This document shows, in pieces, positions 30,753 through 64,000 of a stretch of DNA of 64,000 nucleotides. Both the position numbers and the translations under genes were made by a program. Each line of letters begins with the position of its first letter. The first letter of the stretch is position 1. Origin of the DNA: Polytrichum commune (Eukaryota > Streptophyta > Polytrichopsida > Polytrichales > Polytrichaceae); the NCBI GenBank assembly GCA_950295325.1, contig OX485806.1, positions 54,369,169 to 54,433,168 on the forward strand, given 5' to 3'. Below the pieces are notes generated by a model. That model was not told the DNA's origin. It made no database searches and saw only the letters and a list, made by a program, of their open reading frames with translations.

Positions 30753-30778
30753 CTGAGGATCCAGAATGACGTTATGCA

Positions 30779-36012: not shown

Positions 36013-36019
36013 GACCCCA

Positions 36020-37465: not shown

Positions 37466-38209
37466 TTCTCATAAACATGGCATTGTGGATGAGGAAGCCA
37501 TGGACAAAGAGAGGGACGAATAAATTAAAAATAAAAAAAATGAATACGAGGCAAGGCTCGCAGACGATTGGAAGCCCTAAACTTTCAACAGTGGTACTAT
37601 ATACGTATGAGAGGTAGGTGAGGGGTCATTTTGTGAGGGAATGAGAGGTATGCCTAGAGAGTAGAGAGCACAGAAGAGAGCAGGAAAGGGGAATTGGAAC
37701 GCACACTTGAAGGAACCAGACCAAAATACAGTCTCTACAATCGATCCAGGATAGAAGCAGAAAAGAGAAAGGGAGGCACAAGTTTCAGCAATTCAAAACA
37801 GAGGAGACGGAGAGAACTTAAGAAGAAAGAGGAAACGTGCATAGAAGGAAGAGGGACCCCATCAGAATCGCGTAATACGTTTGCAGTGGACAATAGAGGG
37901 TTGAATTTGCATTCGATAGACGAAGAAACGGAGGACAGTGGTTCACAAGCACCATCTATGGCAGAGAGCGAGTATCGCAAAAATTCAAATCAGAGCGAGT
38001 CTCACGAGGATAATAGAGAAAATTTGATTATTACAGTAAGTTTGTCGTAGAGGTTATATGCACAAAGGGCACTTAAAGATTTAGGTTTATGGGAATAAGA
38101 GAATGGAAATTCAAATCTCTAAATATGGAAGAGAACTTGCAAACAATAGGACAAGCAAGATATGGGTCGGGATTTCAAAAACAAGAAACTTGCGCCTCGG
38201 TGGGTTTTT
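37466..38209 (-). other. 5' flank of the 481-codon gene (left arm)
   Basis: It should hold the promoter and 5' leader of the minus-strand gene. On the gene strand it contains CT-rich blocks (TTTCTTCTTAAGTTCTCTCC, CCCTTTCCTGCTCTCTTCTG) and begins AAACCCACCGAGGCGCAAG next to the satellite. A 118-codon open frame on the opposite strand (37694-38050) is purine-rich and motif-free, and I do not call it a gene. Confidence 0.5.
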
Positions 38210-38308
38210 GACTTGAATGAGGTGTATTATAAATGTGTATGTATATGGACTAGCTAGATTCATATGTTAAAATTCTTTGGGAATGCATTACAGTCCCACC
38301 CTCTCGGA
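38210..38308 (-). repeat. Satellite stub at the inner end of the left arm
   Basis: 99 bases of one A3-type monomer (TTTGACTTGAATGAG... to half of the palindrome, CCCTCTCGGA) are carried at the breakpoint. The full array adjoins the right arm only. Confidence 0.95.
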
Positions 38309-42311: not shown

Positions 42312-43226
42312 ATAGTATTCCGCCCATTATTTGGCACTTCTACAATTTATAAAAAAATATGTTGCCAAAAATTAGCCTCTCTAAAGAATTAAAAATAAAT
42401 ACAGGGTACTAAAATATATGTCAAAGTAGTTTTTTATCTTCAACTAGGGAGGGGAAAGTATAAATAGTTGCACAAATATCCCCCCATTAAATACCCCATT
42501 ATTGCACGTCGTTATAAAACCTAAAAAGGTGTGATCTTCTCGAAGTTGTAACTAACTGACAACTTTAGATGTAGGTCCAAAATAGACAAAAATTCAATGT
42601 TGTTTTATTTAGTCTCAACCCAACATTTTTATTTTTACTCAGGATTTTTCTCAAAACTCATTATTGATAAATATCTATTATTTCCTAACACAAATATAAT
42701 TTTCTCATACAATCAAGCATTTTAAAAATTCTATTTTATTTCTTTCATTTTTTATATTATATTTTTTGAAAATTTTGAAAATATTTATTCGCGTGTAATA
42801 TATGCCACCCTATTTGTTTATACAGGGAAATTTAGTAGTGTGAGCGGAGAGCGGAGAGCGGAAAATTCAAAGTTTAGTGGGCGATTTTCATAGAATGAGT
42901 GCCTATGACTGTCGATTTTGGAGATACTTTATATTCAATTTGTTGAAAATGTACCCCATTCCCGTGGATTTTTTAACACAATCTAATTTGATTGTGAAAG
43001 AGTGGAAGAATGTATTTGTTATCAACGTTATTGTCGTGTAGTTCTCAAAAGGTTAAGGGTTAAATTAGGGTTGACGTCAGCAAATGAAATCAAACAATAA
43101 CATAAGATGAAGAAGGAGATGAATGGAATTTGCAAAAGGTACATGGAAATTCAACAAATGAATTTATAAAAAACTTAAACATAAATAATACATATGAGAT
43201 TGAGGTTCCAAACGCACGAGGCGTAG
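42312..43226. other. AT-rich spacer with one heptamer tract
   Basis: Contains GTGAGCGGAGAGCGGAGAGC (42840-42859), the same 7-base tract type as at 15735-15770. Otherwise poly-A/T rich. No gene recognised. Confidence 0.4.
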
Positions 43227-44579
43227 TCAACAACTTGGACTACCATGTCTATCACTATCCTCGCCCTGCTCGGCCTCTATGTCTAGGAAATCAAATACTA
43301 CTTTGTTGAAAGGGCGGATGCGACTAAGAGGTGGGAACTGTGCTTCCGCCAAAAGATGGGCAAGGTCAGCGGCATACGAAGGGAGTTCGAATGTCGTCGA
43401 AGGGGTTGCAAACATGTCCGCATTAAGGACACGAATGAGGCTCTCATTTTGAACTCTGCACACATAGGATGAAAAAACAAACAAAATGAGCACAAGCCAA
43501 AAATCCCGATCCAAGAAGATAGAAATGCAAGTAAGCAAGTTAGAAGACAAAAACGAACTTACGCACAAAGCAAATCGAAATTGCGCATCGCTATCTTCCG
43601 CGGAGGAGGAGCAAAATCCGATCCTCGTTATGGGGCAACATGCTGAGAAGTGTGTTCTTGCTCAAGCTCACGCATGGGGAGGAGGATGGACTCGAAGATG
43701 TCGATGTTGGACTCAAGCGCCATAACATGGCGTTGCATGGATCGGCATGCAATGACGGAACCTCCTAGAATAACGAAATGCGAAAAGGTGAGCATAAAGA
43801 AATGAATGGGAAATGGAATGAACACAAAAGAAAAGAAAACATTACAAAACAAAAACATGAAAAACAATGAGATGAAAAACCAACCAACGCTACATTGCCA
43901 ATCCATGATAATGTCGTCCTTGTCCGTGAGGGCGGAGAAAATGATGGACAATAACTCGGGTGTTTTTTACGAGCACATTTCCAAGGCACCCCGTCTTCCT
44001 TCATGGACTGGTTCTTCGCATCAGCGAAGCTGTTGAGCCAACCATCTCTTTTGAGATTGTAACCCATGTGTTCGAAGTCCGAGGTCCGGACATTCAAAAC
44101 ATATTCATTACGGACAAACACCTCGATAAAGAATTTGCGAGTCTGTAAGAAATGCATACGGTAGAATTAGAAATATAGAAATGAAAGGATAAAAAATATA
44201 AGAATAAAAAAAGATAAGACTAGAAAAGAATTACCAACTCGGAAGGATTAGTGGGCGATTGGAGATCGAGGCCGTTCATGCCTAACCAGTGATTGGCAAC
44301 GTAGAAGTCCTCTGTATGTGTCTAGTTGTGAATTCATCTAGACACATCAAAATCAACGACGTGTGCAAAGACAAGAACGCCGTCGTCATGGACGTTTCCG
44401 CTTGCGAAGGCAAACAGAACATCAAAGTACGTGGAAGAACGTATGTTCCACTTAGGAACATCCGAGGATGATGACAAGATGTTTGGCACACGGAGGTTCT
44501 CGGGCACATCTGGAAAGAGTAGATCAAACACTGTGTGAACTTTAGGCTTGGTATTTGGACGAGTACGGCCCGTTCCAAC
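43227..44579 (-). pseudogene. Methylase-like C-terminal module (exons H-K)
   Basis: Exon H: TVFDLLFPDVPENLRVPN, then YFDVLFAFASGNVHDDGVLV and, after two stops, ANHWLGMNGLDLQSP. Exon I: KFFIEVFVRNEYVL, then VPWKCARK, frame change, TPELLSIIFSALTDKDDIIM, then DWQCSV. Exon J: GGSVIACRSMQRHVMALES, IDIFESILLPMRELE. Exon K: tail ending GSPSC, stop. The order of a target-strand motif (DPPY-like), then a DXXXGXG-like glycine loop (DWQCSVGGS across the I/J splice), then ALES at the next strand fits the permuted (beta) layout of N4/N6 amino-methyltransferases. The catalytic D/N-P-P-aromatic signature reads DVPE, so catalysis is doubtful even before the stops. I am fairly sure of the fold, not of the substrate. 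Confidence 0.55.
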
Positions 44580-44670
44580 CTGCAAAAGCCAAAATGCAAA
44601 GAAAATTTAGAAAAAAACAAGTGTTCAATTTTATGGAATGAACGAGAAAACAAGATAATGTCGCACAAAC

Positions 44671-45675
44671 CTTATTAAGGAATTATTGGATACGGTGATA
44701 AACCGAAGGGGGAACCTTGGACCGCATGAGATCCTCTATGAGCTTCACCATGTCAACATTCTCAATCAAAGAGAGAGAAAAAAACCGCTCCGAAGAAGTT
44801 GCGGAGGTATCCGGAGCGACGGCCTTCGTCTTGCGCGGCACGGAGAGAATGGTGACACCGCTATGGAAAGGACCAGGAACAAGGTCCCGAGAAGGGGCAG
44901 AAGGAGTGCAGTTGGACTTCCAACAACTGTGGTAGTTGGAGCTGGAGTGCGCTTAACTGATGCCTTGGTGAAAGAACGGGTGGACACTTGACTGGAGGCA
45001 ACCCTCTTGCCTTTGCCCTTCACCTTCACCGGCGGGACCTCTTTGTCATTGGTGGGAAGAGGAGGATTCACATCTTCTTCCGGCTCTTCCTCCAATTCAA
45101 TAACCTCATGCGCAAAGGAAGCAAGGCTGTTGTAGAGGGGTTCTTATACGTCGGGAATGAATCCACGAGAGCAATCCAAGTACCAACCACCATCTACCAA
45201 ATGCACGCGTGGAAATTTTGCAAGTTCCATGGGCGTGTATACACAAAGATTTGAGTTGTCATCGATCCAATCTTCAAGGAATGACGGCAAGGACGAAGAA
45301 AGAAGAGCATTCTTCATGACAAGCTCACGGTGAATGTACCTAAAGATTGAAGAACATGAGAACAAATAAATGGAGTGGAATAAGTGAAAGCAAACGAAGA
45401 TATGAAGGAAAAAAGAAAAAGAAAAATGATTACCGGTAAGCAACACGCTTGATAGCTATGGGGCCTTCCTCGAACTCCATGAGATCGAGCCCTTTGGTGA
45501 ACTTCAAGTCTCCCTTGTCGTCAAAATACACCCGAAAAACCTTGTCCCACAAAATGAGCCTCCAATGCTCGACAAAATGAGCAGGTTGCAAAAGATCTTC
45601 CGTAGAAGCCCAGTCGATGTCGATGGAGCATTCATTTTCAAATCAGGTGATCTCACCCTCAACCCTTTTCTCCAA
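44671..45675 (-). pseudogene. Middle exons F and G of the methylase-like gene
   Basis: Exon F has a compact globular stretch (HFVEHWRLILWDKVFRVYFD, MEFEEGPIAIKRVAYR). Exon G has YIHRELVMKNALL, an acidic run (EVIELEEEPEEDVNPP), a basic run (VKVKGKGKR) and a Ser/Thr/Pro linker. After a frame change it ends ENVDMVKLIEDLMRSKVPPS. The basic run could be a nuclear localisation signal. I recognise no family. Splice sites are clear (TTATCTTAG/TTGG, TACCG/GTAATC, TCTTTAG/GTAC, AATAAG/GTTTGT). Confidence 0.6.
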
Positions 45676-45724
45676 CTAAGATAAAACAAATACAAAGTTA
45701 GAAATTTGGTTGAACCTATCTAGT

Positions 45725-46875
45725 CATACAATCTTCAAAACCTTGAAGTCAAAATCTGGTCCTAATGTCCTACCCGATACTATCAAATGAACTAGTCCAC
45801 ATATCTTCAACCTATGTACACATACAAAACACACCACATTCAAGTCAAAATCTGGTCCAAACAACCGCAACAAAGACCCTCTCGAAACATACCCAAACAA
45901 TTTGTACGTATGAACCGAGGTAGGCCACATACATACACATACATAATACACCTCATTCAAATCAAAATCTAGTCCAAACAACTGCAACGAAAACAATTTG
46001 AATATATGAACCGGGCTAGTCCACATAGATACATATAAGTAATTTACCACATTGAAGTCAAAATCTGGTCCAAGCATCCGCAAACCAAGACCCTCTTAGA
46101 ACCGAGATTGTCGGATTCTAGTGCATATCCAAACAATTTGTAGATATGAACCGAGGTAGAACACATACATACATATACACAATACACCTCATTCTAGTCA
46201 AAATCTGGTCCAAACAACCGGAACCGAGAGGGTCAGACTATAGTGCATACCCAAACAATTTGTACATATAAACCGAAGTAGGCCACATACATACACATAC
46301 ATAATACACCTCATTCAACTCAAAATCTGGTCCAAACAACCGCACCCAATACCCTTTCGGAACTGAGAGGGTTGAATTCTAGTGCATTCCCAAATAATTT
46401 CAACATATGAATCTAGCTAGTCCACATATTTACATATCCATATTACAACCCATTCAAGTCAAAATCTGGTCCAAGCAACCGCAACCAAGACGCTCTCGGT
46501 TCCGAGAGGGTCAGACTCTAATGGATTCCCAAAGAATTTCAAGATGTAAATTTTGGTACTCAACATATATACATATCCATATTACAACCCATTCCAATCA
46601 AAATCTAGTCCAAGCAACCCAACCCAAGACCCTCTCGGATCCGAGAGGGTCGGACTCGAGTGCATTCTCAAAGAATTTCAACATATCACCCTAGCTAGTC
46701 AACATATATACACATACATATTACAACCCATTCAAGTCAAAATTTGGACCACACAACCGCAATCAAAACCCTCTCGGTTTTAAAGCTATTTGAACATATC
46801 AACCAAGCTTGTCCACACATCTTCAACCTATTCACACATACATATTAGACAACATTCAAGTGAAAATCTAATCCT
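45725..46875 (+). repeat. Palindrome satellite array A2, inside an intron
   Basis: About eight monomers of the A3 type (TCAAAATCTGGTCCAAACAA, palindrome near 46490, 46630 and other places). The first three or four have lost the palindrome. It lies between exons E and F of the minus-strand gene, in the same orientation as A3. Confidence 0.9.
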
Positions 46876-47369
46876 ACTATGCTCAAGAAGGTAGTGGAGT
46901 ACGTGTGCCCAAAAAGAAGCTTTGTGAAGCCAATCATCAAGGATTTTTTCGCGAAGAGGAAGAGAAGAGGGGAAGTTGTTTTTGGTTTTGACATCGGCGG
47001 GGGAATTCCACCATCGAAGCCACATAGCCTTCAAGGAAACATCCACATGTGTAGTTGCGCCATTTTGGAGTTTCTCAATAGTCATATCCGAGACAAGGAA
47101 GGTGGAAAAATGACGGTCAATCTGCAAAATAGATTACTGCAATGTAAGAAAATATACTTAAAGCACAAGTGGAAAAACACGAACGTGGAAGCAAATAAAA
47201 AGTGAAGAGGTGAAGGGAGTACCTCTTGGAAGAAGTCATCGTCGTTGTCCTTGTGGGCGACGCAGATGAATTTTTCAAAGCTCCGAGATCAAATACTTTT
47301 GATCAATCTATCTTGCGTTTTTGTCATAGCCTCCCAAATCCTAGGAGTAGATCTAAGAGCCTCGGGAGT
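46876..47369 (-). pseudogene. Exon D (second half) and exon E of the methylase-like gene
   Basis: 47369-47223 reads TTPEALRSTPRIWEAMTKTQ, then DRLIKSI, TGA, SRSFEKFICVAHKDNDDDFF, ending at GAG/GTACTC. 47121-46876 follows TTTTGCAG and reads IDRHFSTFLVSDMTIEKLQ, then LKAMWLRWWNSPAD and WAHVLHYLLEHS. Exon E loses its donor where satellite sequence begins. The frame of D continues from the codons at 50517-50559, showing the repeat between them is an insertion. Confidence 0.65.
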
Positions 47370-50300
47370 TGTGAACCCTTTGAGTGGTCCACCACTTCGC
47401 GGAATCACTTTTAGTTAGAATGTTAGCATTAAAAGTTAGAATTGATAGGGAATTTAGAGAAAATTAGTTCATTTAGCATTTAGCCTAGAAGAAGGAAGGT
47501 TAAAATGAAAACTAAGTAGTGCTAGAAGATAGCAAAGTAGAAAAAATATGCTAGCTAGTAAAAACAACTAGCTAAGGTTTAAGTTAGTAAATGCTAGCTA
47601 AGCAAATGTTAATAGATGCTAGCTAAGAAAATGTTAGTTTATTAGTTAGTGTGAGGCACACAAGACTATTGGAGGTGTTTTGCGTAAGAAGACAAAATCG
47701 GCTTGAAGACTTTTGAAGACAAAAAAACAAGGGGGTTACTTGCCCACTTGACCACTTGCCCCTTTGCCAACTCGATGGCGAAAAATTAGAAAGATTTCTA
47801 AAGGTTTCTCGTCGGAGCCACCTCGGCGAGAGGGTGGCAACCTCAACCGGGAAAACCCCCAAGCCAAAATTTCGGGAAATGATTCGAAAAATGGAGCCGG
47901 TGGAGGAGGGATCCAACTCTTTTGTGAGAGGGTTTAAAAACCCCTCCTTCCACCTTGTAGGAACTTTCTCCTCCTCTTATGGTTGGACGAAGCCCTGCTT
48001 CAATGTAGTTAGGAAAAAATCCTTTAGCATGCATTCTCAATGGCCTAAAAGAAAAACTTAAGAAACTCCTCTACTCTCTCTCCTATTTAGAATGTGTGTT
48101 TATTAACACACCAACAAAATTATTCCTTTCTTTTGTAGAGGTAGGTTGGATTGTAGAGTTTTGAGTGAAGGCATTGTAGACCTCATCTACCAATGCCTTG
48201 AATGCTTAGTTCAAAAGCTAGAACAAAATACTTATTATTTTTTCCTTAGAGAGATTTCCTATAGCTATCCATAGCCGTTTTTCATTTGTGATTTGGTAAA
48301 GATGACAATTAGTTATGTATTTTCAAAGATGGAGTAGAAAATTTGGGTGGTCTTGTGGGTACCGGCTGCTGGATCAGATTTGCGAGCCCAATAGGAATTT
48401 TAATTATAGGAAATTAAATTTTTCCCAAGTATAGTTTTTTCGAGCTTTTGAAAATTGCTTAGAAAATTTGATTTGAGCATGATTTGTATTAGATATGAAT
48501 TGTGGAAGACGGGACACATAGTTTGAGAGCTCTTGGTTGACTGCTGCATTACAGAGGATGTGCTGGGTTCACTTTGGCTTAACTTTCTAATCACATATTT
48601 GTATCAAACATATATATTTAATATCTCTCTTGGGTCATATAGAATGTTTAATTTGAATAATATTTGAATTAGATATGAATTGTTGAACGTAAGATACATA
48701 GTTTAAGCCTTCTTGATTGACTGTTGCGTTACAAGGAGTTTGCTGAACTTTTATTAGCTTAACCTGCTCATGTCATAATTTTCCTAGTTAGAACTTGTTC
48801 ATAGCTTTCCAATGGTATGAGGAAAGCCTAGATCCAAGTAGTAAGGAATGTGCAATGAATTGTTGAAGTTAGAAGTTAGATAGGTGGGTTGGAAGGGTCG
48901 GTTGAATCGACCTCACACTTCCAACCCTCATAACTTTTGTATTTCTTATCCGATTAAAGTGATTTTTAGATCATTAGAAAGGTAATTAGGTGCACTAAGT
49001 AGAAATATTATTCTTAGGATTAAATTACAAGGCAAAATAAATACTTTATATTTTAATTGTTAACTAAGGTATGCTTACTACCAAACTAGTTACAAAGATG
49101 GAGGCAAGGTCGACGCTCGTGAAGTGGAGCAAGGAAGGAGGTAGCGGCTCGGCCTACATCAAGATCAAATCAACCAAGGAGAATTGAAATAAATTAACTA
49201 ACCTTAAGCCTTCCATTTAGAATTGGAGGAGCGCGGCTAAGGTATGCATCTCTGAACCCACTCACCTATCTCGTAAGGTCAAGTGGCTTGACCACTTGAC
49301 CGCCAAGGGAATACCCAACTCCATTATTTTCGGGCCCCTTGATATGTTTTGTGGTAGTAACTTCATTTATTAGCAAGTTTCATATGTGGTAAGTCGGATT
49401 AATCATCGACATAACCACTCTTAATGTTGTTGGTGGAAAGATGAGATTAATGACCCGCGAATCCACTATTATGTTGTTGGCCCCATAGATTGGGAGTAAT
49501 GGCCCCAATTTATGAAATTGCCCAATAGGTTGAACCTACAAGTCGCTCGTCACCCTGGTCCCATTGCGTTGCATTTTGTGGTCTATCTAGTGTAAACACA
49601 TTTATCAATCAAAACATACAAAATAAATCGTAAACCCTTGTTGGCAAGAGACCCAAATCAGAAACTTAACTCGGTAGAGTGACACCACCCTTCGAACCAT
49701 TGATGTTCGAATGGGTTTGAGATGTTACTCAACCTTCAAAGGACCTGCACGAGGCCTTAGAAGGTTCCGAGGTAAGGGGTGCACCAACCAGATAAAGGGT
49801 TATGCCTAATATGTGAATGTAGTAAGGTAGGACGTGCAAACGAAAGTAAGTAATAAGAAGGAATTTGTGTGAAGGGTGGGACTTAGGCCAAGTTCCCCCA
49901 TTTAGAAACTAAATAGAACTAAGTAAAGAAATAGGAAGAATTGAATGGTCCTTCAACCTTCAAAGGACCTGCACGAGGCCTTAAAAGGTTCCGAGGTAAG
50001 GGGTGCACCAACCAGATAAAGGGTTATGCCTAATATGTGAATGTAGTAAGGTAGGACGTGCAAACGAAAGTAAGTAATAAGAAGGAATTTGTGTGAAGGG
50101 TGGGACTTAGGCCAAGTTCCCCCATTTAGAAAACTAAATAGAACTAAGTAAAGAAATAGGAAGAATTGAATGGTCCATCAAATTGTCGTTATTCCGTTCA
50201 TTAAGCTAGGGTGGTATGAGTCACATCCGGTTGGTGTGTATCAAAACCATCCCAATTCACAAATTAAAATAGCCTTGGTTTCAAGGCTGGTGCGTCTGCG

Positions 50301-50516
50301 CGTAGAATAGGCTGTAGGTTAAGGTTAGAACTAGATATGAAATTGGCTAGTGGAATTTATAGCCACAATAATAAAAAAAACTAAGGCCCAATCTTCGGAG
50401 GTACTACGACGCATATTTAATTTCCCTTAAAAATCTAACTACTTTAGTTATACACCTATTATTCGGGTTTGGCTTGGGCACCTGCAAGTGCAGGCCACCT
50501 TCACCGAAGGGCAACA
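47370..50516 (-). mobile_element. Long non-coding repeat, family D, copy 2 (about 3.1 kb)
   Basis: Inverse copy of 4170-6316, about 1 kb longer. On the minus strand it runs TGTTGCCCTTCGG ... CAAAGGGTTCACA, inverted TG/CA ends typical of LTRs and similar to the family B ends. The flanks CTTGC and GGAGT do not match, so no target duplication remains. Unlike copy 1 it keeps a segment at 47520-47990 and carries a 224-bp tandem duplication (49731-50177). It splits exon D of the methylase-like gene. No convincing gene inside. Confidence 0.75.
49731..50177 (+). repeat. 224-bp tandem duplication inside the family D repeat
   Basis: Two copies starting AACCTTCAAAGGACCTGCAC at 49731 and 49955, nearly identical, ending GAATTGAATGGTCC. 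Confidence 0.95.
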
Positions 50517-51369
50517 CTTGCAGGTATAATCGTGCAGCAGTATCCGCCGCATTGGATGTCTCTCTTTAAAACAAATAAAGATGTGTGTAAAGATAAATGC
50601 ATAGAACACGAGGATAGAAAAAAAAACGAAGAGTAAAATTACCTTGTATAAGAACTTGACGTAGACATCCAATGTGAGAGGATACCAAGTAGGATTCTTT
50701 TCCATCTTAGATTCGCACGTCTTGTAGTCGTCAATAGAAATGAGGTCCTTGAAATCCTCAAGCTTCAATTTTCCAAATGTACGAATGCGAAGCAATTTGG
50801 CAGGGAGGTTGTCCTTAACATGATCGTGCTCCGTGGACCTAAAAAACAAAGTAATGTGAATCAAAGAAATAATGCAATATAAAACAAGGATAAAAAAACA
50901 AAGAAAAGAAAACTGAACTTACCAATTGATGTCATTCATGGCATTTAAGAAGATCGCGGTGGAATTTCTTGGATCCACGACAATACAGTCAACTGAGATC
51001 GAGAAACGCAACTTAAAAAGGGGTTTGATTCGAACCCGATGTATCACAACATTAGAGTCTTCTTTATGTGATCTTCGAATCAAGAGCTCCGTCTCCTCTG
51101 AGTTGGAGTCATGAAGAGGACGCAAAGAATCAGTTCCAATAGGTGCATCATTCTACAAAGGTAACCAGAAACACATAAGACAATGGCCAAATTAACTGAA
51201 ACACAAACAATCCTAGGCGATGGAAGGAGAACAAGAAAAAAGGGAACTCCAATAAATGAAACATCTATTGACAAAAGGGATGAAATAATGCCCCAATTCA
51301 TACAACAGGAACCTCTAGTGGAACATTATAGTCCTCCATTGAGGGTGCCACCGAGAGAATGAGATCCAT
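50517..51369 (-). pseudogene. Exons A-D (N-terminal part) of the methylase-like gene
   Basis: Exon A starts with ATG at 51369 (MDLILSVAPSMEDYNVPLE). B: NDAPIGTDSLRPLHDSNS, then VRIKPLFKLRFSISVDCIVV, NAMNDIN, ending ATTG/GTAAGT. C: STEHDHVKDNLPAKLLRIRT, then LKLEDFKDLISIDDYKT, LDVYVKFLYK/GTAATT. D: SNAADTAARLYLQV, then the family D insertion. These exons carry no stop. Exons B and C have a paralogue at 30779-31171 with the same intron between them. The function of this N-terminal region is unknown. ATG choice is supported by the open frame and its position about 70 bases inside the edge of array A3. Confidence 0.7.
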
Positions 51370-51439
51370 GGATTGTGATCCTTGCAAAAATTCACACATA
51401 CAAACTTTAGAACCTCGAGTAAAGATCAAATTCAAACAT

Positions 51440-54400
51440 ACTCAACCAAGACCCTCTCGGAACCAAGAGGGTCCAATTTTAGTGCATTCCCAAACAATTT
51501 CAACACATGAACCTAGTTAGTCAACATATGTACACATCCATATTAAAACCCATTCAAGTCAAAACTTGGTCCAAGCAACCCAACCCAAGACCCTCTCGGA
51601 TCCGAGAGGGCCGGACTCTAGTGCATTCCCAAAGAATTTCAAGATATCACCTTATGTAGTCAACATATATATACATCCATATTAAAACCCATTCAAGTCA
51701 AAATCTGGTCCAAGCAACCGACCCCAAGACCCTCTCAGATCCGAGAGGGTCGGACTCTAGTGCATTCCCAAAAAATCTCAACATGTGAATCTAGCTAGTC
51801 CACATATATTCATATCCAAATTACAACCCTTTCATGTCAAAACCTGGCCCAAACAATCGCAACCAAGACCCTCTTGGATCCGAGAGGGTTGGACTCTAGT
51901 GCATACCCGTTCGATTTCGACATATGAATCTAGGTACTCAACATATATACACATCCATATTACAACCCATTCAAGTCAAAATCTGGTCCAAGCAACCCAA
52001 CCCAGGACCCTCTCGGATCCGGGATGGTCGGACTCTACTCCATTCCCAAAGAATTTCAACATATGAAACTAGCTAGTCCACATATATACATATCCATATT
52101 ACAACCCATTAAAGTCAAAATCTGATCCAAACAACCCAACCCAAGACCCTCTCGGATCCGCGAGGGTTGGACTCTAGTGCATACCCGTACGATTTGTACA
52201 TATGAATCTAGGTTCTCAACATATATACACATCCATATTACAACCCATTCAAGTCAAAATCTGGTCCAAACAACCGCAACTAAGCCCCTTTGAGATCCGA
52301 TAGGGTTGGACTCTAATGCATACCCGAACGATATGGACATATGAATCTAGGTATTGAACATGTATACACATACATAATACACTTCATTCAAGTCAAAATT
52401 TGGTCCAAACAACCGCACCCAATACCCTTTCGGAACTGAGAGGGTCCAATTCTAGTGCATTCCCAAACAAATTTAACATATCAATCTAGCTAGTCCACAT
52501 ATTTACATATTCATATTACAACCCATTCAAGTCAAAATGTGGTCCAAACAGCCGCAACTCAGACCCTCTCGGATCGGAGAAGGTTGGACTCTACTGCATA
52601 CCCGTACGATTTGGACATATGAATCTAGGTATTCAACATATATACACATCCATATTACAACCCATTCAAGTGAAAATCAGGTCCAAGCAACCCAACCCAA
52701 TACCCTCTCGGATCCGAGAGGGTCGGACTCTAATGCATTCCCAAATAATTTCAACATATGAATCTAGCTAGTCCACATATATACAAATCCATATTACAAC
52801 CCATTCAAGTCAAAATTTGGTCCAAACAACCGCAACCAAGCCCTTCTCAGATCCGAGAGGGTTGGACTCTAGTGCATACTCGAACGATTTGGACATATGT
52901 ATCTAGGTACTGAACATGTATACACATCCATATTACAACCCATTCAAGTCCAATTCTGGTCCAAGCAACCCAACCCAAGACCCTTTCGGATCCAAGAGGG
53001 TCGGACTCTACTGCATTCCCAAAGAATTTCAACATATGAATCTAGCTAGTCCACATATATACAAATCCATATTACAAACCATTCAAGTCAAAATGTGGTC
53101 CCAACAACCCCAACCAAGACCCTATCGGATCCGAGAGGGTTGGGCTCTAGTGCATACCCGTACGAATTGGACATATGAATCTACGTACTGAACATGTATA
53201 CACATCCATATTACAACCCATGCAAGTCAAAATCTAGTCCAAACAATTCAACCTAAGACCCTCTAGGATCCGAAAGGGCTGGATTCTAGTGCATTCCCAA
53301 AGAATTTCAAAATATGAATTTAGCTAGTCCACATATATACACATGCATATTACAACCCATTCAAGTCAAACTCTGGTGCAAGCAACCCACCCAAGACCCT
53401 CTGAGATCCGAGAGGGTCGGACTCTAGTGCATTTCCAAAGAATTTCAACAAATGAATCTAGATAGTCCACATATGTATATATCGATATTGCCACCCATTC
53501 AAGTCAAAATATGGTCCAAACACCCCACCCAAACCCTCCCGGATCTGAGAGGGTCGGACTTTAGTGCATTCCCAAAGAATTTCAACAAATAAATCTAGCT
53601 AGTCCACATCTATACACATCCATATTAGAACCCATTCAAGTCAAAATATGGTCCAAGCAACCCAACCCAAAACCCTCTCGGATCCGAGAGGGCCGGACTC
53701 TAGTGCATTCCCAAAGAATTTCAAGATATCACCTTATGTAATCAACATATATATTCATCCATATTAAAACCCATTCAAGTCAAAATCTGGTCCAAGCAAC
53801 CGACGCCAAGACCCTCTCATATTTGAGAGGGTCGGACTCTAGTGCATTCCTAAAGAATCTCAACATGTGAATCTAGCCAATCCACATATATTCATATCCA
53901 AATTACAACCCATTCATGTCAAAATCTGGTCCAAACAACTACAACCAAGACCCTCTCGGATCCGAGAGGGTTGGACTCTAGTGCATACCCGTACGATTTG
54001 GACATATGAATCTAGGTACTCAACATATATACACATCCGTAATACAACCCATTCAAGTCAAAATCTGGTCCAAGCAACCCAACCCAAGACCCTCTCGGAT
54101 CCGGGATGGTCGGACTCTAGTGCATTCCCAAAGAATTTCAACAAATGAATCAAGCTAGTCCACATATGGATATATCCATATTACCACCCATTCAAGTCGA
54201 AATATGGTCCAAGCAACCCAACCCAAGACCCTCTCGCATCCGAGAGGTTCGGACCCTAGTGCATTCCAAAAGAATCTCAAGTTATCACCCTAGCTAGTCA
54301 ACATACATATACATCCATATTACAACCCATTCAACTCAAAATCTGGTCCAAGCAACCCAACCCAAGACCCTCTCGTATCCAAGAGGGTCGGACCCTAGTG

Positions 54401-57400
54401 CATTCCAAAAGAATCTCAAGTTATCACCCTAGCTCGTCAACATATATATACATCCATATTACAACCCATTCAAGTCAAAATCTGGTCCAAGCAACCCAAC
54501 CCAAGACCCTTTCGGATCCGAGAGGGTCGGACTCTAGTGCATTCCAAAAGATTCTCAAGTTATCACCCTAGGTAGTGAACATATATACACATCCATATTA
54601 CAACCCATTCAAGTCAAAATCTGGTCCAAGCAACCCAACCAATACCCTCTCGGATCCGAGAGGGTTGGCTCTAGTGCATACACGTACAATTTGTACATAT
54701 GAATCTAGATACTCAACATATATACACATCCATATTACAACCCATTCAAGTCAAAATCAAGTCCAAACAACCCAACCCAAGACCCTCTCGGATCCGGGAG
54801 GGTCGGCCTCTAGTGCATTCCCAAAGAATTTCAAGATATCACCATAGGTAGTCAACATATATACACATCCATATTACAACCCATTCAAGTCAAAATCTGG
54901 TTTAGGGAACCCAACCAATACCCTCTCAAATCCGAGAGGGTTAGACTCTTGTGCATACACGTACGATTTGTACACATGAATCTAGTTACTCAACATACAT
55001 ACACATCCATATTACAACCCATTCAAGTCAAAATCAAGTCCAAGCAACCCTATCCAAGACCCTCTCGGATCCGGGATGGTCCGACTCTAGTGCATACACG
55101 TACGATTTGTACATATGAATCTAGGTACTCAACATATATACACATCCATATCTCCACCCATTCAAGTCAAAATCTGGTCCAAACAACCCCACCCAATACC
55201 CTCTCGGATCCGTGAGGGTTGGACTCTAGTGCATTCCCAAAGAATTTCAACAAATGAATCTAGTTAGTCCACATCTTTACACATCCATATTACAACCCAC
55301 TCAAGTCAAAATATGGTCCAAACAACCCAACCCAAGACCCTCTCGGATCCGAGAGGGTCGGACTCTAGTGCATTCCAAAAGGTTTTCAAGTTATCACCCT
55401 AGCTAGTCAATATATATATACATCCATATTACAACCCATTCAAGTCAAAATCTGGTCCAAGCAACCCCATCCAAGACCCTCTCGGATCCAAGAGGGTCGG
55501 ACTCTAGTGCATTCCCAAAGAATGTGAAGTTATCACAGTAGCTAGTCAACATATATATACATCCATATTACAACCCATTCAAGTCAAATTATGGTCCAAA
55601 CAACCCAACCAACAGCCTTTGGGATCCGAGACGGTTGGACTCTAGTGCATACCCGTACGATTTGTACATATGAATCTAAGTACTCAACATATATACGCAT
55701 CCATATTACAACCCAATCGAAGCAAATATGGTCCAAGCAACCCAACCCAAGACCTTCTTGGATCTGAGATTTTCACAACCCTTGCTAGATTTTCATAACC
55801 CTTGACAAATTTGCCAATTTTCAATTTTAGCAAAGGTTATGAGCGCTAACCATTCACATTCCGCCATGCCAATGGTTAGCTCCTCTTACCCCGGACCTTA
55901 TAGTTCAACCCTCCTATTTTTCTTTCGGGACGCACCCCTTAATTGGTAACCCATTCGTAAATATGGACTTCCGACCATGAAAGTCCAATGTTATGTTGAA
56001 CATCGCGTTGCCGGAGCAACACTACAACAACCCGAACCATAGTAGGCAACTATGGCCTCACATTGGGCCAAAGCCCATGGAGGCCGTGCTGTTCGGGCTC
56101 GGGTGGGTGAGGCCACACCACCTCACCCATATAATCCTCTAGGACTCTATGCGGGGCCCTTACCCCACCATCAAGAAACCTCTTGTCTCTCTACCAAGAG
56201 TTGGGGCCAAGTAGACATTTTCCCTTAGCCGTTGGGCCTAGAAGCCCCCAACAGCTTCAGACCATCATAACTTGCTTGTATGATGTCTAATACTAACAAG
56301 AAACCACTCCATCTTCATCAACGCTTCACGTAGATGCCGATGCACGCTTCATCTGCCTCATTTGGGCAAATATTGAGGAAGTTATGCCTGTTTGAACCTT
56401 GGCAGTCCCGGGAATCACTCCCAGGCACTTCATTACTAGGGCGATGTCCCGGGACAGCGCCCCACTCAAATTGCCATTACTCCTAGCTCACACCTCCGAT
56501 TGAGGTGTTCTTGAGCATTCTAGAATCACCCTCATGCCTCCTAGTTTCCGTGGGTGGGAGGCGTCCCCAACGCCCGGGGTCCTCGCCCACACTAGGATCA
56601 CTTGGGCCCTCTCACCAACGGCGACACAAGTCCCGGGTGTCACTCCGCGGTCCCCCTTGTGCCCATGGTGTTTCCGGCACTCCTCATGGAGAGGTGCGCA
56701 ACAGAGAATGTCGGACTTTAGTGCATGCCCGTACGATTTGGACATATGAATCTTGGTACTCAACATATATAGACATCCATATTCCAACCCATTCAAGTCA
56801 AAATCTGGTCCAAACAACCGCAACCAAAACCCTCTCGGATCCGAGACTGTTGGACTCTAGTGCATACCCGAACGATTTGGACATATGAAGCTAGGTACTC
56901 AACATATATACACATCCATATCACAACCCAATCAAGTCAAAATCTGGTCCAAGCAACCCAACCCAAGACCCTCTCGGATCCAAGAGGGTTGGACTCTAGT
57001 GTATTCCCAAAGAATTTCAACATATGAATCTAGCTAGTATACATATATTCAAATCCAGATTACAACCCATTTAAGTCAAAATCTAGTCCAAACAACCGCA
57101 ACCAAGACCTTCTCGGATCCTAGAGGGTTGGACTCTAGTGCATACCCGTACGATTTGAACATATGAATCTTGGTACTCAACATATATAGACATCCATATT
57201 ACAACCCATTGAAGTCAAAATCGGGTGCAAACAACCCACCCAAGACCCTCTTGGATCCGAGAGGGTCGGACTATAGTGCATTCCCAAAGAATTTCAACAA
57301 ATGAATCTAGGTAGTCCACATATGTAAATATCGATATTACCACCCATTCAAGTCAAAATTTGGTCCAAACAACCCCACCCAAGACCCTCTCGGATCCGAG

Positions 57401-57910
57401 AGGATTGGACTCTAGTGCATTCCAAAAGAATGGCAAGATATCACCCTAGCTAGTCAACATATATATACATCCATATTAAAACCCATTCAAGTCAAAATAT
57501 GGTCCAAACAACCCAACCCAAGACCCTCTCGGATCCGAGAGGGTCGGACTCTAGTGCATTCCCAAAGAATTTCAACATATCACCCAAGCTAGTCAACATA
57601 TATACACATCCATATTACACCCCAATCAAGTCAAAATCTGGTCCAAGCAACCCCACCCAAGACCCTCTCGTGTCCGAGAGGGTCAGACTCGAGTGCATTC
57701 CCAAAGAATTTCAACATATCACCCTAGCTAGTCCACATATATACACATCAATATTACACCCCTTTCAATTCAAAATCAAGTCCAAACAACCGCAACCAAG
57801 ACCCTCTCAGTTCCGAGAGGGTGGGACTGTAATGCATTCCCAAAGAATTTTAACATATGAATCTAGCTAGTCCATATACATACACATTTATAATACACCT
57901 CATTCAAGTC
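51440..57910 (+). repeat. Palindrome satellite array A3
   Basis: About 39 monomers of 138-139 bp, interrupted by a solo LTR at 55771-56703. Consensus landmarks: the 20-bp perfect palindrome CCCTCTCGGATCCGAGAGGG with central BamHI site, GTCGGACTCTAGTGCAT, CATATGAATCTAG, ACATATATACACATCCATAT, CCATTCAAGTCAAAATCTGG. Two monomer classes differ after GTGCAT: ...TCCCAAAGAATTTCAA... or ...ACCCGTACGATTTGGA.... The array lies between two divergent genes, the methylase-like gene leftward and the 481-codon gene rightward. Confidence 0.96.
55771..56703 (-). mobile_element. Solo LTR, family A, inside satellite array A3
   Basis: On the minus strand it starts TGTTGCGCACCTCTCCATGA (56703) and ends GGGTTGTGAAA (55771). 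The flanks GAGAT (55766-55770) and GAGAA (56704-56708) form a 5-bp duplication with one mismatch, falling inside the palindrome of a monomer. The satellite continues on both sides in phase, so the array predates this insertion. Confidence 0.92.
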
Positions 57911-58654
57911 AAAAACCCACCGAGGCGCAAGTTTCTTGTTTTTGAAATCCCGACCCATATCTTGCTTGTCCTATTGTTTGCAAGTTCTCTTCCATATTTA
58001 GAGATTTGAATTTCCATTCTCTTATTCCCATAAACCTAAATCTTTAAGTGCCCTTTGTGCATATAACCTCTACGACAAACTTACTGTAATAATCAAATTT
58101 TCTCTATTATCCTCGTGAGACTCGCTCTGATTTGAATTTTTGCGATACTCGCTCTCTGCCATAGATGGTGCTTGTGAACCACTGTCCTCCGTTTCTTCGT
58201 CTATCGAATGCAAATTCAACCCTCTATTGTCCACTGCAAACGTATTACGCGATTCTGATGGGGTCCCTCTTCCTTCTATGCACGTTTCCTCTTTCTTCTT
58301 AAGTTCTCTCCGTCTCCTCTGTTTTGAATTGCTGAAACTTGTGCCTCCCTTTCTCTTTTCTGCTTCTATCCTGGATCGATTGTAGAGACTGTATTTTGGT
58401 CTGGTTCCTTCAAGTGTGCGTTCCAATTCCCCTTTCCTGCTCTCTTCTGTGCTCTCTACTCTCTAGGCATACCTCTCATTCCCTCACAAAATGACCCCTC
58501 ACCTACCTCTCATACGTATATAGTACCACTGTTGAAAGTTTAGGGCTTCCAATCGTCTGCGAGCCTTGCCTCGTATTCATTTTTTTTATTTTTAATTTAT
58601 TCGTCCCTCTCTTTGTCCATGGCTTCCTCATCCACAATGCCATGTTTATGAGAA
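57911..58654 (+). other. 5' flank of the 481-codon gene (right arm)
   Basis: Promoter/leader candidate between array A3 and the start codon. CT-rich between 58260 and 58490, which is common in plant 5' leaders. Short upstream ATGs exist. No clear TATA box found. Confidence 0.5.
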
Positions 58655-60100
58655 ATGGTTGAGCTCCGTGCCAATGGAGTCGGGATCCCTCTTTTCCCCA
58701 TAGATGCAAACGGATTTGCATGTGTCTCTTCCCTTCACCTTAGTATGAGGTTTTCGTTGCAAAATAATACAATATGGGTCGAACGTCTGATTTATGATAA
58801 TGCTACTTCTCTTTTGTCATTGACCATCCGTGAGAATTCTAGGGTTGCCGACAACGAATCATCAGTATGGGAACTTTGCGTTGGTAAATACAGAGTGTAC
58901 GGACTCCTACATTCTTGCTCCAATGTATCCACAGAAATCCATACCCCTCCCCATTCATCTTCTTCCACTTTAAACACTCCTCCCGTGGTCAAATTTAAGA
59001 TTGAACCTGGTGTACACACTGTCATAGATCTTTCAGATTCCTCCGATGGTGATGAGCCCCCTCTATCCACTCCCATTCTCAAGCCATCCCCTTCCTCCCT
59101 CAATTCCTCCTTTCTTTACCCCCTTGTAGGCCTTCAACCTTTATGTCCTCTTCCTCCATCCCATGCCAAACCATACATTTCCATGCCCGGTAGGAAGAAC
59201 ATCCTCAAGAAGCTACATTATGACCCTTTGCAAATTGAAGAGGTCAATTTCCTCCCTCGCTTTGATGGGAATCGGATGTTTGTCCTCCCCCCCGTTGGTG
59301 TCTCTTCCTCTCATACCAAGGCCAAATCCATGGACGGCATGGACAAACGCTATAACGGCCATGTTTGGACCAAATCCCAAACCACCAACATCAGCAATGA
59401 CTTAGGCCTTGTTTTTCGTTCCTCCACCTGCGTTGGGCACCTCCAGTGCCAGAATCCTCTTTGCGACTACTTCCAACATGTTCATCATACCTCCTCAATC
59501 AATGATACTGAATTCGATGGATTTACCAAGGACCCTTTTCCAGTTGGTGGTCCCGTGCCTACCTCCTCCGCTCTAGTGTGCAAGATCTACAAGGAGACAC
59601 CCAAATGCATTGCACCCTGCGTTGCCAAAATCTTCTACGTACACGACAACGACACCACTCAGTGGGCATGCATTCATCTTGGCAATCATTGTCACCCCGT
59701 CAAGGTCGGCAAATGCGGGGATAGTCGCCTGCGCATCGACGCCCTAATCGAGGAGCACGTCGAGGGAACGCCCCAAGCCACTCATAGCAAAATCGTTCTT
59801 GAGGCGAGCAAGGACCTTGTGGGTGAGTTCCTCCTCCACAATGATAGTGATCCTCATCAACTTCTTTCCTTGGAAGAACTTGAGCCCGTTTTTTATCGTT
59901 GCAAAGAGTTGAATTCCCCCCACCTCCGAAATAAGGTTACCACCTTCAAATACTTGCGTAGCCTAGGAGTTATGGATAGCATCGCCAAGCTCAGAGGTGT
60001 CAGCACCTGGGCCTATGTCCAACAAAATCAATTCCCAGGCCAGGGTGACGAAACGGACAAAGGTTTTCGCCTTCAAGATGATCGAGGTCGGCCCTGGTAG
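58655..60100 (+). CDS. 481-residue protein with GCM1/WRKY-like Cys-His cluster and SUMO-interaction-like motif
   Basis: Open from MVELRANGVG to a stop at 60100, no lesion. Residues 1-95 are a compact N-terminal region. At 114-117 FKIE fits the sumoylation consensus, and at 120-134 VHTVIDLSDSSDGDE fits a phospho-regulated SUMO-interaction motif (hydrophobic VIDL plus Ser/acidic tail). 135-175 is Ser/Pro rich, and 179-186 is basic. Residues 259-347 hold a ligand set C259, C265, C270, H275/H277, C309, C318, C322, C339, H341, H345, H347. The end WACIHLGNHCHP resembles the closing HXH of GCM1/WRKY/FLYWCH DNA-binding folds used by transposon proteins. The C-terminus (RLQDDRGRPW) runs into LTR-adjacent sequence and may be truncated. 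It is divergent from the methylase-like gene across array A3. I infer a nuclear DNA-binding protein of a mobile element. The family is not named with certainty. Confidence 0.85.
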   Translation: MVELRANGVGIPLFPIDANGFACVSSLHLSMRFSLQNNTIWVERLIYDNATSLLSLTIRENSRVADNESSVWELCVGKYRVYGLLHSCSNVSTEIHTPPHSSSSTLNTPPVVKFKIEPGVHTVIDLSDSSDGDEPPLSTPILKPSPSSLNSSFLYPLVGLQPLCPLPPSHAKPYISMPGRKNILKKLHYDPLQIEEVNFLPRFDGNRMFVLPPVGVSSSHTKAKSMDGMDKRYNGHVWTKSQTTNISNDLGLVFRSSTCVGHLQCQNPLCDYFQHVHHTSSINDTEFDGFTKDPFPVGGPVPTSSALVCKIYKETPKCIAPCVAKIFYVHDNDTTQWACIHLGNHCHPVKVGKCGDSRLRIDALIEEHVEGTPQATHSKIVLEASKDLVGEFLLHNDSDPHQLLSLEELEPVFYRCKELNSPHLRNKVTTFKYLRSLGVMDSIAKLRGVSTWAYVQQNQFPGQGDETDKGFRLQDDRGRPW

Positions 60101-60107
60101 TGGGGTC

Positions 60108-60756
60108 GATTTGGTCTCGGGTGGGTGAGGCCACACCACCTCACCCATATAAGCCTCTAGGACTTCACGCGGGGCCCCTACCCCACCGTCAACCAACCTC
60201 TTGTCTCTCTACCAAGAGTTGGGGCCAAGTGGACATTTTCCTTTAGCTGCTGGGCCTAGAACCCCCCCAGCAGCTTCAGACCATCATAACTTCCTTGTAT
60301 GATGTCTGATCATAACAACCAACCACTCCATCCTCATTTACGCTTCACGTAGATGCCGATGGACTCCTCACTTGCCCCATTTGAGCAAGTCTTGAGCAAG
60401 TTATGCCTGTTTGAACCTTGGCAGTCCCGGGAATCACTCCCAGGCACTGCTGTACCAGGGCGCTGTCCCGGGACAGCGCCCCACTCAAATGGCCATAACT
60501 CCTAGCTCACACCTCCGATTGATGTGTTCTTGAGCTTTCTAGAATCATCACGCCATGAGCTACGCATAACTCATGGCCTTACCCTTGTGCCTCCTAATCT
60601 TTGTGGGTGGGAGGCGTTCCCAACGCCCGGGGCCCTCACCCACACTAGGATCACTTGGGCCCTCTCACCAACGGCGCCACAAGTCCCGGGTGTCACTCCG
60701 GGGTCCCCCTTGTGCCCATGGTGTTTCGGGCACTCCTCATGGAGAGGTGCGCGACA
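60108..60756 (-). mobile_element. Chromovirus 3' LTR, family A, truncated (right arm)
   Basis: Inverse copy of 35364-36012. It abuts the 3' end of the 481-codon gene in convergent orientation. Confidence 0.88.
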
Positions 60757-61569
60757 CTCACCCCCACCTAACGGAGTCGATGCCCTCATCGACTATGCTC
60801 GTAGTCGGCACACCAATTCTCAAGTTGCCATCCTCTATGGTGCGGCATTGTGTTTACCTTAGGGCGCGACCCCCACAATGCATCTTCAAATTTGGCATAG
60901 TCCCAAAGGTGTCGTTCCTAGGTGGTCCGTTAGCAACCTTGGATCTCTCATCCAAGGACCTAACCTATACTAGAGCCACCTACTTTGGGACTCACTTGGG
61001 TTGCCCCTCCTTTGGGGCCTCCCCCGTTAGGCTCCACTAGCCTAACGTGACACATCTAGGCGAGACCTCAACGCTTCCACTAAGTTGTCTCGGTTGCAAC
61101 TCCGAGATGGCTTTCCATTGTTAAGCCACGCCTCGATTGCACGGGGGTGATGCCAAGTCCCGCCCGACTCGGTTCCCACTTTGCTCTTTCGAGACATGGG
61201 TTCATGACTCCCATGCGCCAACTCTCATTAGCTCGCGGGTAGCACTTTTATGAGCACGCGCCATCACCTTATCCCCGCCCGGACAAGCCCACAACTAAGA
61301 AGTTTCTTGGTTTTATCCAAGGCCCCTCCAAGCCATGGCCCCCAATTACTCGGCTTACCCAACCTAGTTTGGCATGTCTATTCCCCCTCTTCCACTAACC
61401 AAGCACAAGTACAAGACTAGGACCTCATCTCATACTTTTATCTTTGCACCACTAAAGTTCAACTTTATTCCCTCAAGCCAAAGAACAAGTTCATGTTGTG
61501 GAGTAATTAACCTCGAAGCTAAGTGTGCTACTAGCGTCTCTCCCCCACTAAAGGAGATTGATGTCCTCA
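60757..61569 (-). other. Chromovirus 3' non-coding region with polypurine tract (right arm)
   Basis: Inverse copy of 34551-35363. CTCACCCCCACCT (60757-60769) is the complement of the polypurine tract. Confidence 0.6.
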
Positions 61570-63018
61570 TCAATGCCTACGCTTCATTTTATTGGAATCC
61601 TTAGCCTTAGTTTCTTCAAAGTGCTTCACCAATTCATTGGTGTTCACCATGTCTCTTGCCGCCACCCAAGTGGTTTCTTTCTCATGGCATCCTCACCATT
61701 TCACCAAGTACTCCTTTGTACATTTTCTTTCATTTTCACTTGGGCTTCCTACACTTGAGGATGCCCTCCTACCTCATGTTCCAAATGACCTCCACAAGGT
61801 CGGGACGTGGCCTAATCACTTGCTTGTGTTCGGGCCACAAGGTGTCGTCCTAAAATGACTTTCGTAATGAGACATGAAATGTCGGATGCACTTTGATCTC
61901 GGGCGGTAATTCCAACTTATACATGTCTTTGAACACTTGTTCCACAATGGAAAACAAAAGCTCCAATTTTGGACATGAACTTTTGGAGTAAGGCCTTTGG
62001 GCAAGGTGAATTTGTCCACATTCAACAACACCTTATTGGCCCACCTTATACTCCACTTCGCGTCTTCCGGCATTGATTTGCACTCCGTAGCACCTTCGGG
62101 CTTTCTCCACCAACAACTTGGTCATCTCCAAGACTTGTTTACCATCCTTGGCCAAGTCCTCACCATCTTGGTTGAACTCTAGTGTTGAATGTGCCCCCTC
62201 GAGGGCTAGGTTAATAGGTTGGAGCGCATCCACTCCATAAGCCACCACGAAAGACCACCCCTTGGTAGCCAAGTGCGTGGCTACATTGCAATTACACTCC
62301 GCTCGACCCACATAGTCCGCCCAATCTCCTTGGTCCGCCCCCACCAAGTTCCTCAAGTATTGCTTCAAGACTCCATTCACATGCTCCGCTTTCCCATTCA
62401 TTTGGGAATGCAAGGCCGTGCTAAACTTTAGTTTCATTCCGACCTCCTTAGAGAAATGCATTGAAAATGCACTTGTGAACTTTGGATCTTGATCCCACAC
62501 AATCACTCTTGGCAACCCGTGGTGCCTCAACCATCCTTTGAGAAAAGGCTATGCGGTCTCCAACGCGGTGGCGGTTCCCACAATCGGCACCATGCGTGCC
62601 AACTTGGCAAACCGCTATACCATCAACAAGATGGCATCATACCCATGTGACTCCGGCAAACTTGTGATCAAGTCCATGCACATACAATGCCATGGCGCCG
62701 ACGGGATAGGCACGGTTGCAAGAAACCGCCTTGGTTTTGGTAAGAGGCTCGGTTCACTTGGCACTTTATTCACGCCTTCACAAAGTGGGTTATATCCTAC
62801 TTTATGCACCGCCAATGGTATCTCTTTGACATCATTCTATGGTGGTTATATTTTTCTCCTCTATGGCCGGCAATAGGACTATCATATTCCTCCCTCAAAA
62901 CCGATAGCCTCAACTTGCCTTGTGGCACATACACCCAACTTTGCTTGCACTTGAACAATCCGTCCACCAACTTAACCTCTTTAAGCACCTTGCTCTTGCG
63001 AAGCTCACCTAAAAGCAT
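61570..63018 (-). pseudogene. Chromovirus integrase and chromodomain (right arm copy)
   Basis: Inverse copy of 33102-34550 with identical motifs and identical stops (DQDPKFTSAF near 62480, VAARDMVNTNELVKHF near 61620). Since the lesions are shared, they predate the duplication. Confidence 0.92.
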
Positions 63019-64000
63019 TTGTGCTGTGGGGTAGTTAATTTACCCCTCCCGTATCTTGCATCACAAAAATTTTATTATTTTGGGGAGAATATGGAAAATT
63101 CTAAATATATTCGGATCTTTAAAAAAATCTAAGTTTACTCTAGGAAGTTTATTATTTTTACTTCCTCTCCGCTTTCCGCTTTCTGCTCACCGCTCAAATA
63201 AGAGTGTCGTCCTGTTTCCACATTGTTTGTTGAATTTTCTATGCAAACTTTTTGGGTTCATATTTGCTTCCAATAAATACTACCAAAGAAAATGACTATC
63301 CTTAATTTTATTTCATGAATAAAAATATCAAAATTACATGGATAAAGAAGTTGGAGCCCTTTACATGTCCATTGAATGTGTTATGGACCTTTAACATGAT
63401 CCAGTAGGAAAACCCACTGCTTATTTCAACAATTCATTAAGGAATTGGTTATTAATGCAAATATTTTATTCCACATATATATAGGCATATGGGTTTTGGC
63501 AAAAATTAAAGTGAAAAACGAGAGAAAACCAATAATTGTTTGTATTGGAAGAAATGGTGTTGTATTGTAACGGGGAGTGCTATCAGGTGAGTGGTGAGCA
63601 GTGACATGTGAGCAGTGAGGAAGGAATGGACATTGATTTCACACACACTTATATATGCCATAAACCACTGAGGTAGCAAATTTTTCCAATTTTTCCAATG
63701 CCATCTCCGATTATGGATTGGAGCTCCAATGCGTGTTGACCTAGATAATAATTTAAAACATGAATATATCTCAAATATATTAATGTATGCAATAATAAAA
63801 TTTTGTGAAAATAAAGTATTCAATTATGCAATATTTTCAGTATAAATGAATTCAAATATCTGAAAATCAAAGATACAAATATACAAAAATCTAAGTGTAT
63901 ATAAAGTCAAGTATGCAAAAATTAAGTATGCAAAAGTTACATATGTTATAATCTAATAATAAAAAATAAATTATGTAAGATTTGAACATGTAAAAAATAA
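63019..64000. other. Unresolved outer part of the right arm
   Basis: Inverse copy of 32120-33101. Contains the heptamer-tract repeat (63055-63210; CCGCTTTCCGCTTTCTGCTC) that also occurs at 15595-15785. No gene recognised. Confidence 0.5.

Follow-up and report, generated by a model that had tools for sequence, protein, structure and literature searches.

A large two-gene DNA transposon with a conserved palindrome bank and a methyltransferase-like partner gene in Polytrichum commune

The VANDAL transposons of Arabidopsis encode an anti-silencing protein of their own, VANC, that binds motifs in tandem repeats; both the binding and the loss of methylation are demonstrated, the target repeats are found in introns of VANB21 and VANC21 as well as upstream of VANA21, and the motifs are family-specific (PMC5735166; PMC10398659). 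Methyltransferases are reported in retrotransposons as well, namely Dam-like enzymes in DIRS elements and DNMTs in elements of Symbiodinium and Klebsormidium (PMC5890265). Here we analyzed a stretch of 64,000 nucleotides from Polytrichum commune (C4:54369169-54433168, hereafter the window) and searched 407.8 Mb of the genome in 64 contigs. Positions 42825-60116 of the window represent what is left, after decay and truncation, of a large two-gene DNA transposon, in which a transposase-like gene and a methyltransferase-like partner gene diverge from a bank of palindromes. Its closest working parallel is VANDAL/VANC.

Both systems are large DNA transposons that combine a transposase gene with an accessory gene, and in both a short, subfamily-specific motif is densely repeated in non-coding tandem repeats, some of them within an accessory-gene intron. 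The proteins and sites differ: VANC is characterized by DUF1985/DUF287-type regions, and its 9-bp motif is not palindromic, whereas the accessory protein described here contains a methyltransferase-like domain and the repeated site is inverted. A Pfam scan of this protein found no VANC-type family (DUF1985/DUF287). Moreover, VANC binding and demethylation are experimental, whereas for the present element the corresponding steps are predicted. With the methyltransferase-carrying retrotransposons, the element has in common that a mobile element carries a DNA-methyltransferase-like protein. However, theirs are Dam-like or C5 enzymes, whereas here the carrier is a DNA transposon and the domain is beta-class N6/N4-like, encoded by a separate, divergent gene of ten exons.

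Two complete copies of the element were found, copy A at C1:34531309-34547939 (16,631 bp) and copy B at C4:30634690-30654068 (19,379 bp). Both have inverted terminal repeats, with matching ends of about 50 bp, and both (2/2) are flanked by perfect 10-bp target duplications, CAACTGGCCA and GTTCATTTGA, at unrelated places. Identity between the copies is 99.8% across 7.3 kb of the transposase side and 99.4% across 3.9 kb at the opposite end, which indicates that they moved recently. An earlier note on the window had proposed a mobile element with findable ends and target duplications, and copies A and B bear this out; we regard it as almost certain that the element is a transposon that has two genes, inverted ends, and a palindrome bank that is conserved. 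A Helitron or a retrotransposon was considered and rejected, since either is at odds with the 10-bp target duplications and the inverted ends.

Target duplications of the MULE superfamily are 8-11 bp long, typically 9, and its hallmarks are a DGTY...D...C-x2-H pattern and a SWIM-like CxC...CxH motif. The present element resembles this superfamily in its inverted ends, its 10-bp target duplication, a SWIM-like motif, and a putative form of the first pattern; its transposase was matched by none of the MULE, SWIM, or zinc families in Pfam. The ends and motifs suggest a Mutator-like assignment, and because the transposase has no MULE profile match, we call the element Mutator-like rather than a MULE member. 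To our knowledge, a divergent methyltransferase-like partner gene and a palindrome bank are not usual in MULEs.

The layout of the window recurs across the genome. We paired 104 transposase loci (62 of the 65 rows of one search and 42 of the 89 of another, the remainder being the same loci or fragments) with a partner set of 149 of the 150 listed matches to exon 2 of the partner gene, which were the best 150 of 1,276 candidates. First-look candidates for the transposase numbered 2,430 and 1,636. A listed partner exon 2 lay within 25 kb of 70 of the 104 transposase loci, and all 70 were divergent and on the 5' side, at a median distance of 7.0 kb. By comparison, when the transposases were placed at random 200 times, the mean was 0.54 pairs and the maximum 3. 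At one compact copy (C2:9.35M), all three parts fit inside 3 kb. The three parts thus belong together, as the earlier note had supposed, and a lack of such pairs elsewhere, which that note had named as a refutation, was not observed. A host promoter or a satellite unrelated to the genes, each considered as an explanation of the palindromes, was ruled out by the 70/104 paired loci. In raw counts, contig C4 holds the most of any contig, with 45 of the 149 listed partner matches and 27 of the 104 transposase loci.

In the window, the main palindrome array consists of 139-bp units and extends over 51446..55769 (+); its first palindrome is 83 bp 5' of the ATG of the methyltransferase-like gene. It is interrupted by an inserted repeat of 940 bp (55770..56709, no strand assigned) with relatives at 13.7-14.4k, 17.5-18.5k, 35.4-36.0k, and 60.1-60.8k. 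The second part of the array (56710..57914, +) has its last palindrome at 57802-57821, 834 bp 5' of the transposase ATG. TRF reported the 139-bp period in both parts, with 31.2 and 8.7 copies, respectively, and 40 sites at up to 6 mismatches lie between the genes (51452-57821), in keeping with the roughly 39 palindromes and the 139-bp spacing noted earlier. The site CCCTCTCGGATCCGAGAGGG occurred 45 times in the window at up to 3 mismatches and in none of 100 shuffles; 36 of these sites are in 51452-57821, 3 at 46.35-46.65k, and 6 at 28.5-29.5k, where a distinct array runs in the opposite direction. This smaller array (28285-29573) adjoins no recognized transposase or partner gene. A further array stretch, absent from the earlier note, occupies an intron of the methyltransferase-like gene at about 45.9-46.8k (45895..46777, +) and contains 5 palindromes at 46091-46649 (up to 6 mismatches). 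Outside the arrays, an exact CTCGG-NN-CCGAG was not found in 90.2 kb of this region, and the 3 one-mismatch sites within it all fall in the mirrored left array.

The same type of site is embedded in quite different repeats in the complete copies. Copies A and B share the site GAGGCCTCGGATCCGAGGCCTC, whose exact 12-bp core occurs 31 times in A and 47 times in B, with array periods of 96, 117, 126-129, 179 bp and more. When sites were chosen by the 12-bp core, so that the outer arms played no part in the choice, the 20 central columns contained 1.97 bits of information, versus 0.76 and 0.87 bits in the surroundings; in the old window array the contrast was weak (1.60 versus 1.28 bits). The spacers of the window were no more similar to those of B than shuffled sequences were (18 comparisons, z -1.3 to 1.5), and within B the unit classes of 96/117 bp, 126-129 bp, and 274 bp are mutually unrelated or barely related, with the palindrome common to all. 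In four regions upstream of transposases, picked on transposase homology alone, we counted 11, 9, 31, and 1 sites at up to 1 mismatch, compared with 0, 0, 0, and 1 for the reversed control and a mean of at most 0.10 in 20 shuffles per region. The site forms vary between loci in their central and outer bases (AGGCCTCGGATCCGAGGGCT, CCCTCTCGGAATCGAGAGG, and CCCTCTCGGAGCCGAGAGCC), and their common part is CTCGG-NN-CCGAG. Genome-wide, the exact form of this part, CTCGGNNCCGAG, occurs 7,400 times and the reversed pattern 154 times, a 48-fold excess. Chance or artefact as the source of the palindromes is ruled out by the shuffles and the reversed-pattern controls. To judge from these alignments, CTCGG-NN-CCGAG looks to have been kept by selection across subfamilies with unrelated spacers. 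In the window palindromes at 45.7-58.0k, G>A and C>T at CpG positions are among the commonest changes, a pattern expected from the decay of methylated cytosine.

The partner gene survives in the window as a decayed multi-exon gene at 43230..51369 (-). Its approximate coding stretches, assigned by tblastn and reading, are 51304-51369, 50922-51152, 50643-50837, 47220-47288, 46888-47124, and 45433-45708 (stretches 1-6), followed by 44686-45344, 44241-44606, 43948-44142, 43562-43760, and 43230-43451 (stretches 7-11), all on the minus strand. The gene is broken by stops, a frameshift, and deletion of the N-terminal stretch that bears an EGNHR motif, and an intron other than the one with the array stretch holds repeat-derived DNA (47370..50512, no strand assigned) with pieces 90-92% identical to window 4170-6318, inverted. 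Copy A contains an intact version with ten exons, encoding 1,114 aa, in which all introns are GT..AG; the window protein is 53% identical to it over the alignment. A search for homologues found 194 relatives, of which the best 120 were listed. In most rows that reach it, motif IV reads D-[VI]-P-x-W-N (TDVPAWN 17, SDVPQWN 10, TDVPDWN 8, and others), and it precedes an AdoMet-type motif I (DWQCGVGGS...RHIVALESD), the order of beta-class amino-methyltransferases. A profile search against PDB matched 5hfj and 5hek, DpnA-type N6-adenine methyltransferases, with E-values of 8e-4 to 1e-3; the match covers the motif X/I region. From these enzymes the partner differs in having D-[VI]-P-x-W-N for DPPY and a long extra N-terminal part. 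In Pfam, PF01555 (N6_N4_Mtase) gave E 0.011-0.12, at best 16.1 bits versus a curated cut-off of 26.7; it matched 9 of 11 relatives at E up to 1, and no other family did. The amino-methyltransferase-like module of the earlier note is thus backed by the PDB profile and only weakly by Pfam, where it stays below the cut-off; motif order and profile together support a resemblance of the C-terminal domain to beta-class N6/N4 amino-methyltransferases. The EGNHR motif in the N-terminal part is ParB/sulfiredoxin-like at the motif level only, and the partner protein matched no Pfam family or PDB sequence for such a domain.

On the other side of the array, we confirmed the zinc open reading frame (ORF) at 58652-60100 (+), which covers no more than the beginning of a longer exon. 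The window retains the N-terminal part of exon 1 of the transposase-like gene (58655..60116, +), cut off after the zinc-binding region; there is a frame shift near 60065, and the homology ends at 60116, the start of a repeat. The ORF has 106 relatives, the longest of 700-800 aa, and corresponds to their N-terminal 480 residues. In the same genome, the full exon-1 frame occurs many times, with at least 65 matches, many of them with an unbroken frame of 766 codons (the best 62 of 2,430 first-look candidates were scored in the exon-1 search). In copy A, the gene extends into a second exon bearing the SWIM-like CxC...CxH motif. By homology, then, the zinc ORF encodes the N-terminus of a transposase-like protein rather than a stand-alone regulator; both genes had been correctly located, and both are fragments of larger genes. 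The description of the zinc protein as GCM1/WRKY-like holds at the motif level, in that a set of Cys/His positions shows little or no variation in the N-terminus of 24 aligned relatives, but not at the family level: a Pfam scan of the transposase fragments and of the whole protein found no MULE, SWIM, WRKY, GCM, or FLYWCH family. The motifs HVYDGTY, FMADSAQAN, and ERTC-x-F-HW are common to nearly all relatives that reach that part. We read them as a putative Mutator-type D..D..C-x2-H, for which neither Pfam nor a low-confidence structure model of the transposase core gave support.

When the window was compared with copy A, the transposase had a pN/pS of 0.30 over 460 codons; the partner, with saturated synonymous sites, had 0.34 over 453 codons. 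Both element proteins were formerly under purifying selection, and since the two values are close, the accessory protein was kept about as carefully as the transposase.

Taken together, these results describe an element of 16-20 kb, of Mutator-like type, with two genes. The first encodes a transposase-like protein with a zinc-binding N-terminal region, a putative DDE-like core (D..D..C-x2-H), and, in exon 2, a SWIM-like C-terminal motif. The second, in the opposite direction, encodes a protein of about 1,100 aa that combines the EGNHR motif with the C-terminal beta-class amino-methyltransferase-like domain. The intervening bank consists of independently amplified tandem repeats, each with CTCGG-NN-CCGAG, and would most likely serve as a high-density docking array for a dimeric protein encoded by the element. 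By analogy with VANC, such a docking role is quite probable, while the methyltransferase-like protein, our first choice as binder, is favored only slightly. Once bound, it would recognize the copies of its own family, and the control region would thereby be kept expressible or otherwise marked, as VANC does for VANDAL. The anatomy of the array matches that of VANC targets, which makes the partner the likeliest binder and a self-specific release from silencing, or marking, the likeliest effect. This whole scheme of transposon, docking array, methyltransferase-like binder, and self-recognition is, on balance, what we consider the best and a reasonably probable explanation.

Its main rival, with the binder that the earlier note favored, holds that the zinc-binding region of the transposase binds the palindromes, so that the array titrates the transposase or represses its promoter while the partner does something else. 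The palindromes would suit a dimer, the conserved Cys/His region sits in the N-terminus of the transposase, and the array is upstream of the transposase at every examined locus that holds it. However, the site is absent from the inverted terminal repeats, which the transposase must bind, and the array is nearer to the partner ATG (178 bp in copy A, and the 83 bp of the window) than to the transposase ATG (1,548 bp in A, and the 834 bp of the window). The sites of copy A begin 6.3 kb from one end and cease 5.4 kb short of the other. Lying near the partner ATG and far from the transposase and both ends, the array is therefore not the end-binding site of the transposase, and we consider the transposase an unlikely binder.

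Somewhat less probable still is that the partner has adenine or cytosine-N4 methyltransferase activity, with the palindromes as its substrate, and so marks the DNA of the element. This would accord with the profile match to DpnA-type enzymes and with a GATC centre in the sites of the window, copies A and B, and a further locus (L045); DIRS retrotransposons, moreover, are said to carry Dam-like adenine methyltransferases (PMC5890265). On the other hand, motif IV is non-canonical, and the centre of the site is not conserved: AG, AT, TA, GA, GG, AC, CA, GT, and AA occur, as do GAAT, AG, and TT variants, so GATC cannot be the general target. A fixed, Dam-type GATC site as the general target is ruled out by this variation.

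That the array is a passive satellite made by slippage, with the palindrome as a seed of expansion to which no protein binds, is very improbable. Copy number does vary widely, as slippage predicts (the 31 and 47 exact cores of the near-identical copies A and B), but the same site sits in unrelated units and across subfamilies, at the 48-fold excess over the reversed pattern. A ParB/parS-like centre for replication or partition of an extrachromosomal element, which the EGNHR motif and the array of inverted sites might recall, is hardly credible, as the searches matched neither a ParB family nor a PDB chain.

Several observations weigh against the docking-array scheme. Neither element protein reaches a curated Pfam cut-off, and both structure models were poor. 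Motif IV of the partner departs from the canonical D/N/S-P-P-Y/F/W, and, given this odd motif, the methyltransferase-like domain may be inactive. The fourth upstream region (L048) has a single site, equal to its reversed control. Finally, 34 of the 104 transposase loci had no partner among the matches listed (the best 150 of 1,276), which may reflect the limits of that set or real loss.

As to the borders of the window copy, the end on the methyltransferase-gene side is kept at 42825..42860 (+), where GGGAAATTTAGTAGTGTGAGCGGAGAGCGGAGAGCGG resembles GGGAAACTCAAGTATGTGAGCGTAGAGCGG at the matching end of the intact copies, and the opposite end is lost. A second copy of the 10 bases at 42815-42824, where the target duplication is expected, was not found in the window plus 20 kb on each side. 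A remnant of a second element lies at 14633-15786. Its SWIM-like exon (14633-14905) shares 81% identity with copy A, and near 15786 it keeps a transposase-side end (...CACATAGAAGTGTCGTCC).

The window is also part of a large inverted duplication, in which 12120-38308 and 57812-84000 are 99.992% identical over at least 26 kb, with a spacer of 19.5 kb. The left arm (12120..38308, +), which does not belong to the design of the transposon, has its inner end in mid-palindrome, and the right arm (57812..64000 in the window, -) runs on to at least 84000. The inner break coincides with the exact centre of the array palindrome at 57802-57821, and the duplication is either a real rearrangement at the palindrome or an assembly artefact. 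It gives rise to a second, identical zinc ORF at 36020-37468 (-), within a transposase-like fragment at 36004..37465 (-) identical to that at 58655..60116. Elsewhere in the window, a long open frame at 25656-27407 encodes a hAT-type transposase (Dimer_Tnp_hAT, E 3.6e-19), and 9878-10056 matches eukaryotic 18S rRNA (Rfam RF01960, E 7.5e-37). In an open frame at 3476-4048, the stretch LTLVELFGGIGMGLASVLEAG is reminiscent of a C5 DNA methyltransferase motif; the frame has no Pfam match.

The odd satellite between two genes is thus explained as part of a mobile element and not as a host regulatory locus. In the literature examined, self-specific control of transposons through arrays of motifs is known experimentally from VANDAL/VANC. 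A bolder possibility, which we hold tentatively and think somewhat doubtful, is that the element represents an undescribed lineage of transposons, either Mutator-like or a separate superfamily, in which a methyltransferase-like protein and hundreds of private arrays would recognize the element's own copies and manage them epigenetically; the site would diverge in its centre and arms between subfamilies, so that control stays within each family. If the docking-array scheme is true, P. commune would offer a second such system with an unrelated, DNA-methyltransferase-like protein, the strategy would have evolved more than once, and the genome would provide thousands of natural sites for comparing motif, spacing, and binder.

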